Shown: piece by piece, positions 52,761 through 55,353 of the stretch | Layout of the letters: every line of letters begins with the position of its first letter | Numbering within the stretch: position 1 is the first letter of the stretch | Assembly: GCF_000001735.4 (NCBI RefSeq) | Contig: NC_003070.9 | Coordinates: 1,674,001 to 1,738,000, forward strand | DNA length: 64,000 nt | Direction: 5' to 3' | DNA from: Arabidopsis thaliana | Lineage: Eukaryota > Streptophyta > Magnoliopsida > Brassicales > Brassicaceae | Notes under the pieces: model-generated | Databases searched by the model: none | What the model saw: only the letters and a program-made list of their open reading frames with translations | Told to the model about the DNA's origin: nothing | Translations under genes and position numbers: made by a program

Positions 52761-54180
52761 ATGGCTGGAGTTATGCACAAGTTCCTTATTGCGTCAATGT
52801 TCATGTGGATTCTTCCTGTTGCCATATTATACGGATTCAACCACAATTTGCTTCCTGGTAATTAATCTCCTTGTTTTATTGCGATCCTCTCCAATTTTCT
52901 TTTGGTTGAGTTTTATCTTCTAGTTATGCTGATGCAATTTCGAGTTGGATTCATTCCAATATTGTTGTGTATGAAGTTCACAAATGTGCAACTTTTCATA
53001 TTTTGTTATCTACTATTTAGCTTTATAGTTGGATTGTAAAACAATTGAGCTAAATTTCGCATCTTAGCTTTAGCTTCATCGCTTCTTAGGAGTGAAAAGC
53101 CTAATGAGAATATGGATGTTTTCTATGAGTTTGTAAAGATCTCTCTGGTGATCATGATAAGTATCTCTCTGGCTCTTCATCTTCTTGATCTTTGACTCTT
53201 CCTCGAAGCTGTCCTTGGCGCACTTTCTTTGATTTAGAAGGCAACAACTGTCAATTCCCTAAATCTTTCTTGACAAATCATAACAACTTTGGTTAAAAGG
53301 TTTCGAAAACTCAACCTCTTCTTCAGTCTCTCTCTTTCCAAAAGGGAAAGACTGAAGTAGAGATTGGGTTTCCGATACCTTTTGGCCCATGTCGTTATGA
53401 TTTGTCGAGGAAGGTTTGAGAAATTGAAAGAAGATGCGCTAGGACAACTTGAAGGAAGGGTCAAAGATGAAGAAGATGAAAAGCCAGAAAGATCCTTATC
53501 ATTATAGCTAGAGAGATCTTCACAAACTCATAAAAATCATATATATTCTTACTAGGGTTTCCACTCCTAATGAGTGAAGTCAATGATGCCTTGAAGCAAA
53601 ACAACTTCATCTTCTTCGCTGGAGATCATAAACTACACAAATTCTTGAAATCTTTGGCTTCTACGTACACTCTTTTATGTAGAACTTTTCTCATGAAAGC
53701 AGTTTAATAGTTCCTTTTACTTGGCTATGGTGGTAGTTTTAGAAATTTTCTCTATTGTACAACTTTTTGAAACTGTACTCTCTTAGAATTGTCATATCAA
53801 TATAGCTTTTTGATGATCTTCACATTCATCCAATGCTCGTTGTTCCTTTGGCGTTGTCTGTCCCACATAAGTTTTATGTATTACTTGCTCAGCTCGTTAA
53901 TGTGATAAGCTGACCTCAATACTCACTATCAGTGTTTTGAGCTTGATCTTTAACAGGTTCAACGACATTGTCTCCTCATTCTCTAATTCTCTTGAGCGGA
54001 TTTCTTGCGGTGGTATCAGTGAACACAGTGATCGTGTTCTACATCTGTATGGCCATGAAAGAACCTGCAGATAAACACAAACCAGACGCTGCATTTCTCG
54101 CTGAGGCCAAAGATAGTGTGAACAAATTGACAAAAGGAGCCACAAGCAGTGATGATCATGCACTCAAAAAACAAGAGTGA
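52761..54180 (+). CDS. VMA21-like V-ATPase assembly factor
   Basis: Two exons: 52761-52857 and 53957-54180; 106 residues, the usual VMA21 size. Two hydrophobic helices (FLIASMFMWILPVAILYGF and ILLSGFLAVVSVNTVIVFYI) flank a short lumenal loop. The C terminus ends KKQE, a dilysine (KKxx) ER-retrieval signal as in yeast Vma21p. The protein is predicted to chaperone assembly of the V-ATPase membrane sector in the ER and cycle from the Golgi. The single 1.1 kb intron is unusually long for this window and contains a large inverted repeat (53074-53580). Confidence 0.9.
53074..53580. repeat. Long imperfect inverted repeat (foldback) inside the VMA21-like intron
   Basis: The left arm (about 53074-53340) and right arm (about 53345-53580) are reverse complements over nearly their whole length. 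By eye roughly five bases in six match, with one indel of about 20 bases in the left arm (around 53240-53260). Paired landmarks: CTTAGGAGTG at 53085 with CACTCCTAA at 53571, ATGAGTTTGT at 53126 with ACAAACTCAT at 53522, and GACAAATCATAAC at 53272 with GTTATGATTTGTC at 53394. The apex is near 53338-53348. Transcribed as intron RNA it would fold into a hairpin of about 240 bp. It could be a MITE-like foldback or an inverted duplication of the type that seeds young MIRNA or siRNA loci. Confidence 0.85.
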
Positions 54181-54599: not shown

Positions 54600-55310
54600 T
54601 TGAACTATCAAATGACGCTACCCAAATCCCAGTTAGTTTTCTTATAGTTTTGTAAATCTAAAACTAAAATAAATAAAAAATATTAAATATACATAACGAT
54701 TAGAAAACAAAATGAAATTATGAAATTGCTAACGATCAAATGACTACGTCAAATAACGAGATCCAAAGTCCGGTTAGATTTCATATCATTTTGTAAATCT
54801 AATCTAAAATACGCAAAAAAAAAAACAAATTGAACTTGTAACAAAATGACTAGATCAAGTGACAAGCGTTTTGTAAATCTAATCTAAAAACAAATCAGAA
54901 AATGCTAAATTTACATAACGATTAGAAACCAAATTGAACTTGTGAAATCGCTAACGATCAAATGACGGAATCCAAAGTCCGGTTAGTTTTCATATTGTTT
55001 TATAAATCTAGTCAAAAACAAAAAAATGCTAAATTCACATAACGATTAGAAAACAAATTGAACTTGTGAAATCGCTAACGATCAAATGACTAGGTCAAAT
55101 GACGGGATCCAAAGTCCGGTTAGTTTTCATATCGTTTTGTAAATCTAGTCTAAAAACGAAAAAAATAAAATGCTAAATTTACATAACGATTAGAAAACAA
55201 ATTGAACTTATGAAATTACTGACGATTAAGTGACTAAATCAAATAACAGAATCCAAAGCCCGGTTAGTTTTCGTACCGTATTGTAAAAATCTAGTCTAAC
55301 AAAACAAAAC
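54600..55310. repeat. Diverged tandem repeats with TCCAAAG(T/C)CCGGTTAG
   Basis: The phrase ATCCAAAG(T/C)CCGGTTAG recurs at about 54761, 54969, 55108 and 55251, with a diverged form at 54625. It is each time followed by TTTGTAAATCTA-like sequence and then ACATAACGATTAGAAA (about 54692, 54914, 55038, 55179). Unit length varies from about 130 to 220 bases through small deletions. The family is not recognised, and there is no coding potential inside. Confidence 0.75.
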
Positions 55311-55353
55311 AAAATAGACCAAAAAAAAAAAATTGTAGAAAAGACTTAGAAAT

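Follow-up and report, generated by a model that had tools for sequence, protein, structure and literature searches.

A long near-palindrome inside an intron of a VMA21-type gene raises two questions: where its arms came from, and whether the RNA hairpin that it would form is kept for some function or is simply decaying. We examined both in a window of 64,000 nucleotides from Arabidopsis thaliana (the whole stretch of DNA analysed; positions are those of the window unless a chromosome or locus is named) and in a genome search covering 119,662,809 bases in 7 contigs.

The foldback and its host intron

The host gene, which we take from its position to be AT1G05780, has a plus-strand intron of 1099 nt that runs from a GT at 52858 to an AG ending at 53956. 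These limits were set from the GT/AG borders, exon continuity, the paralogue and the Pfam VMA21 profile, which matches the downstream exon (exon 2; E 5e-8), and they bear out the first-pass annotation, which had placed the foldback in an intron of a VMA21-like gene. The paralogue lies on contig 2 (chr2), shares 84% amino acid identity and was the sole other genome match at E up to 1. A passage in a V-ATPase review gives Vma21a as AT1G05780 and Vma21b as AT2G31710 (PMC9280200), and AT1G05785 is named merely as a homologue in a passage of a wheat paper that has no bearing on the foldback (PMC10876783). The intron of the chr2 paralogue has the same place and phase but is 522 nt long and is without the foldback. 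The two introns differ by 577 nt, nearly the length of the span 53064-53646 (583 nt). Downstream of the VMA21-type gene, at 54957-55315, the window also holds a tandem array (period 144, 2.5 copies, 84% matches), and words resembling it extend upstream, by eye, to about 54520.

Arm alignment and repeat finding place the left arm of the foldback at 53064-53336 on the plus strand and the right arm, its reverse complement, at 53342-53600 on the minus strand. The proposal had been that the two halves of 53074-53580 are reverse complements almost to the apex. Its location was right and its limits slightly narrow: the left arm already begins at 53064, and similarity to the source gene continues past the foldback as far as 53646. 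The arms were aligned, as had been recommended: of 251 ungapped columns, 206 (82%) are identical and 45 differ, and 30 columns contain gaps. The largest indel is 18 nt. The alignment scores 217, whereas mononucleotide shuffling of the left side, repeated 500 times, never gave more than 28. Without gaps, repeat finding resolved the foldback into one block of 82% and another of 77%. Identity hardly varies from one end of the stem to the other (0.76-0.88 across ten blocks of 25 columns), with no patches of gene conversion seen between the arms, which meet at the apex with a loop of a few bases and no spacer. Searching the window for inverted matches to itself (E up to 1e-3, dust on) returned two, of which the foldback is the only large one, the other having arms of about 51 nt.

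The predicted RNA fold of 53050-53610 reaches -281.3 kcal/mol (z -23.4), and none of 100 dinucleotide shuffles did as well. When 53064-53600 is folded, 218 of the 222 predicted pairs span the apex, and the longest uninterrupted helix is 25 bp.

Source and arrangement of the arms

The first-pass annotation had suggested that the inverted duplication was made from a piece of coding sequence elsewhere and that a genome search with one arm might find a parental gene. The right arm with its flank, used as a DNA query (E up to 10), matched, besides its own sequence and the left arm, a single further place, chr4:529108-529238 (E 1.6e-16). This lies inside a minus-strand frame of 327 amino acids that matches the Pfam GeBP-like_DBD domain (E 7.1e-28) and belongs to a GeBP/storekeeper-type gene of the source family (L013), presumably AT4G01260. 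When the intron was compared by local BLAST with 25 GeBP-family loci (23 places, as L015/L026 and L034/L036 overlap), L013 gave four blocks of 65-176 columns, and a second GeBP-type chr4 gene (L014) gave weaker ones (77% over 82 columns).

The four blocks represent two segments of the gene, A and B, each present as a left and a right copy. The left copy of A (53079-53143, plus strand, gene-sense) covers the start of the GeBP DNA-binding domain and is 75% identical to L013 2099-2036, with a translated score of 49 against a shuffle maximum of 37. The left copy of B (53166-53337, minus strand, gene-antisense) is 78% identical to L013 1770-1944 (translated scores 76 and 74, shuffle maximum 50), and the right copy of A (53513-53646, minus strand, gene-antisense) is 75% identical to L013 2036-2166 (60 and 52, maxima 40 and 38). 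The right copy of B (53340-53479, plus strand, gene-sense) matches L013 1946-1784 at 67% with gaps, and its translated score against the chr4 protein, 45, barely exceeds the highest of 200 shuffles (43); the matches of the other copies are clearer. Judged from these matches, two GeBP/storekeeper-type coding segments from the lineage of the chr4 gene survive in decayed form in each arm, and the suggested origin in coding sequence elsewhere is thus upheld by the chr4 match, the four blocks and their translated scores.

The hint behind that suggestion was an open, charged peptide frame from about 53398 to 53507, which is real: within the right copy of B and beyond, a frame of 48 codons is open from 53361 to 53507. 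In the sense orientation of the gene, its peptide QLEGRVK-DEEDEKPE aligns to QLGGSVKVDEDDQEPQ in the chr4 protein, and we read the frame as a relic of that of the GeBP-type gene. The differences from the chr4 gene at codon positions 1, 2 and 3 are even (12/11/12 for the left copy of B and 13/12/10 for the right copy of A), and the arms have therefore drifted without coding constraint. We looked for an intact, constrained GeBP-type coding frame and found matches broken over frames with no codon-position bias; of six arm frames, one matched the Pfam domain, at E 0.015, which is under the cut-off. As a relic with differences spread evenly over codon positions, the open frame was ruled out as a working exon.

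Reading along the plus strand, one meets A-sense, B-antisense, the apex, B-sense and A-antisense in turn. Segments A and B are mutually inverted within each arm, unlike their order in the chr4 gene, and the 91 bases that separate them in that gene are absent from the arms. Because this inversion is shared by both arms, it was a rearranged gene fragment that was duplicated head-on, and the simplest history, we infer, is that a rearranged A-sense/B-antisense fragment came first and its inverted copy after. The right copy of A runs 46 nt past the foldback, which indicates that truncation or replacement has altered the left end. Instead of the present chr4 gene, the source may have been its ancestor or a sister gene since lost.

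Inverted arms located in an intron could also be those of a MITE or of a gene-capturing transposon with long inverted ends, and transposons can carry captured gene pieces in rearranged order. Against such an origin, no further genomic copy turned up: the three queries (left arm; right arm with its flank; segment B) matched nothing beyond their own locus and the chr4 gene, at a sensitivity at which copies diverged below about 78% could be missed. Left-arm DNA queries missed the 78% chr4 match, and a nearer source or diverged copies may have escaped the search. The many copies with terminal repeats that had been named as the mark of an ordinary MITE were, at this sensitivity, not seen. The flanks examined share exact direct repeats of at most 7 nt (two of that length, with the exact ends of the element uncertain), which make no convincing target-site duplication, and the arms join at the apex with no spacer. 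We consider a transposon origin highly improbable.

We favor instead, with a probability of about 0.7, an inverted-duplication locus that did not arise from a transposon. In this reading, part of a GeBP/storekeeper-type gene from the chr4 gene lineage, already rearranged, would have arrived in the VMA21 intron, undergone a head-on duplication that left a loop of a few bases, the outcome expected of replication template switching, and then decayed mostly neutrally for roughly 7-15 My. The features expected of inverted-duplication (proto-MIRNA) loci are present, namely adjacent reverse-complement arms in one predicted stem and homology to a coding gene that extends beyond a 21-nt site.

Decay and small-RNA potential

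The date follows from the divergence of the arms. Three-way alignments of the left arm, the right arm and the chr4 gene have 225 gap-free columns, in which the left arm has 23 changes of its own and the right arm 19, 31 set both arms against the chr4 gene, and 7 are three-way. The Jukes-Cantor distance between the arms is 0.205, or 0.10 per arm. At substitution rates of 1.5e-8 and 7e-9 per site per year, the 18% arm divergence would correspond to an age of ~7 My and ~15 My, respectively. The foldback would therefore not be very young.

If pairing of the plus-strand transcript had mattered, differences that preserve G-U pairs would be expected in excess. No such excess was found among the 30 transition differences between the arms, 15 of which preserve G-U pairing and 15 do not (binomial P 1.0), and the two strands of 53064-53600 fold equally well (plus -280.3, minus -279.6 kcal/mol). 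Both results speak against a functional hairpin kept for long. Within the 82-column ungapped block, no 21-nt window was conserved beyond expectation (P 0.84). Overall, we see no sequence sign of selection on an RNA hairpin or of kept function.

The first-pass annotation had proposed the hairpin as a source of DCL3/DCL4 siRNAs or as a young miRNA in the making. If transcribed as part of the VMA21 pre-mRNA, the foldback would form an imperfect dsRNA of ~220 pairs, a potential substrate for DCL enzymes; siRNAs cut from it would in part be antisense to GeBP-type mRNAs. We scored 21-mers from both strands of 53064-53646 against the middle parts of the 25 family loci with a TargetFinder-like penalty. 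The best hypothetical 21-mer (53255-53275, plus strand), over the codons for DLSRKIWG, has penalties of 1.5 for L013 and 2.0 for L014 and is not conserved beyond expectation; 33 windows for L013 and 32 for L014 fall within a penalty of 4. If diced, the foldback could act on the GeBP family.

These scores bear on the possibility of an active hpRNA or young MIRNA, in which the VMA21 intron, spliced or unspliced, is diced and its siRNAs silence GeBP-type genes in trans. The long, stable predicted stem would suit this role, as would 21-mer penalties better than the best scores of 20 mononucleotide shuffles (3.0-5.0). Precedents are the VIM4-VIM2 inverted repeat, which silences VIM1 (PMC13213937), and a GeBP-like gene named as a possible target of miR827 (PMC8091714). 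The complementarity, however, is due to homology and is what homology alone yields; no 21-nt window was retained above expectation, and neither the wobble balance nor the equal folding of the strands points to pairing selection. In the main texts of the literature searched, we found no report of small RNAs from the foldback locus, and no mention of AT2G20613. An active role in trans is thus unlikely in our judgment.

Alternatively, the hairpin could affect VMA21 in cis: folding might reduce the effective length of the intron, or intron siRNAs might direct DNA methylation. The stem covers about half of the intron, and a passage in PMC4597857, citing another paper, reports intron siRNAs that correlate with host expression. 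The paralogue, though, has its intron in the same phase at 522 nt with no foldback, and no pairing selection was detected; we give a cis role hardly any weight.

Membership in a known RNA family was rejected. An Rfam search (E up to 1) returned eight matches to hairpin families, none of which attained its gathering score; the best, to MIR821 on the minus strand, had an E of 2.4e-8 and scored 53 bits, where the gathering score is 249.

Related foldbacks and known systems

Large inverted repeats overlap GeBP-type sequence at two places among the 25 family matches (23 places). At chr5:16715939-16717311 (L038:2440-3812), presumably AT5G41765, near-palindromic inverted GeBP-type copies form arms of ~690 nt that are 82% alike. 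Like the foldback in the VMA21 intron, this is an inverted GeBP-type duplication with 82% identity between arms, but its arms are longer and it is apparently intergenic rather than intronic. It looks like a separate event, because the nearest relative of its arm elsewhere is chr4:100304-100749, at 70%. A passage in PMC8795450 names AT5G41765 with an atypical siRNA peak in Col-0. At about chr2:8885792-8886130 (L032:1241-1579), an inverted repeat with ~170-nt arms, 86% alike, overlaps the end of a minus-strand GeBP-type reading frame. Smaller inverted repeats occur in the flanks of three other loci (L017, L021, L030), and L032 contains an AT-rich one, in which positions 1-317 are strongly self-complementary with repeated ATTTACAAG-like words. 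We do not claim that foldbacks in the GeBP family exceed chance. The broader idea that this family repeatedly yields self-derived foldbacks (chr1 VMA21 intron, chr5, chr2), with intron siRNAs from the intronic one coupling the silencing of GeBP-type regulators in trans to the transcription of a V-ATPase assembly factor, seems to us very unlikely.

Read as a decaying inverted duplication, the foldback is a mid-age example, with its source family identified, of how plant small-RNA genes are proposed to arise by inverted duplication. With the two other GeBP-type foldbacks it forms a one-family series in which to ask whether function is kept or the repeats simply decay, and it would be a useful neutral reference if no small RNAs map there.

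Passages in PMC12825306 and PMC5910406 describe IR71 and IR2039 as endogenous inverted repeats that make siRNAs. Like these, the foldback is a single locus predicted to give a long, imperfect intramolecular dsRNA. IR71 is ~3 kb of dsRNA with demonstrated siRNAs, whereas the foldback has ~220 predicted pairs and is intronic. In Cvi-0, the VIM4-VIM2 inverted repeat lowers VIM1 expression (PMC13213937). There too, inverted gene copies are able to yield siRNAs against a gene family, as is predicted for the foldback, but the copies are two nearby inverted genes for which siRNAs and silencing were shown, and the foldback is a decayed fragment of a distant gene. Part of the account of a small-RNA locus map states that inverted repeats were computed genome-wide, and the foldback may therefore well figure in such a list.

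Another close parallel is the inverted-duplication (Allen) model, which is set out in a passage of PMC3237417 that attributes 11 of 142 A. thaliana MIRNA genes to this route. As in the model, the two arms go back to a portion of a coding gene located elsewhere in the genome. Unlike such MIRNA genes, the foldback has arms made of a rearranged two-segment fragment and shows no sign of a selected miRNA window. What appears to be new is the addition to this known kind of a low-copy, mid-age member whose source family can be traced.
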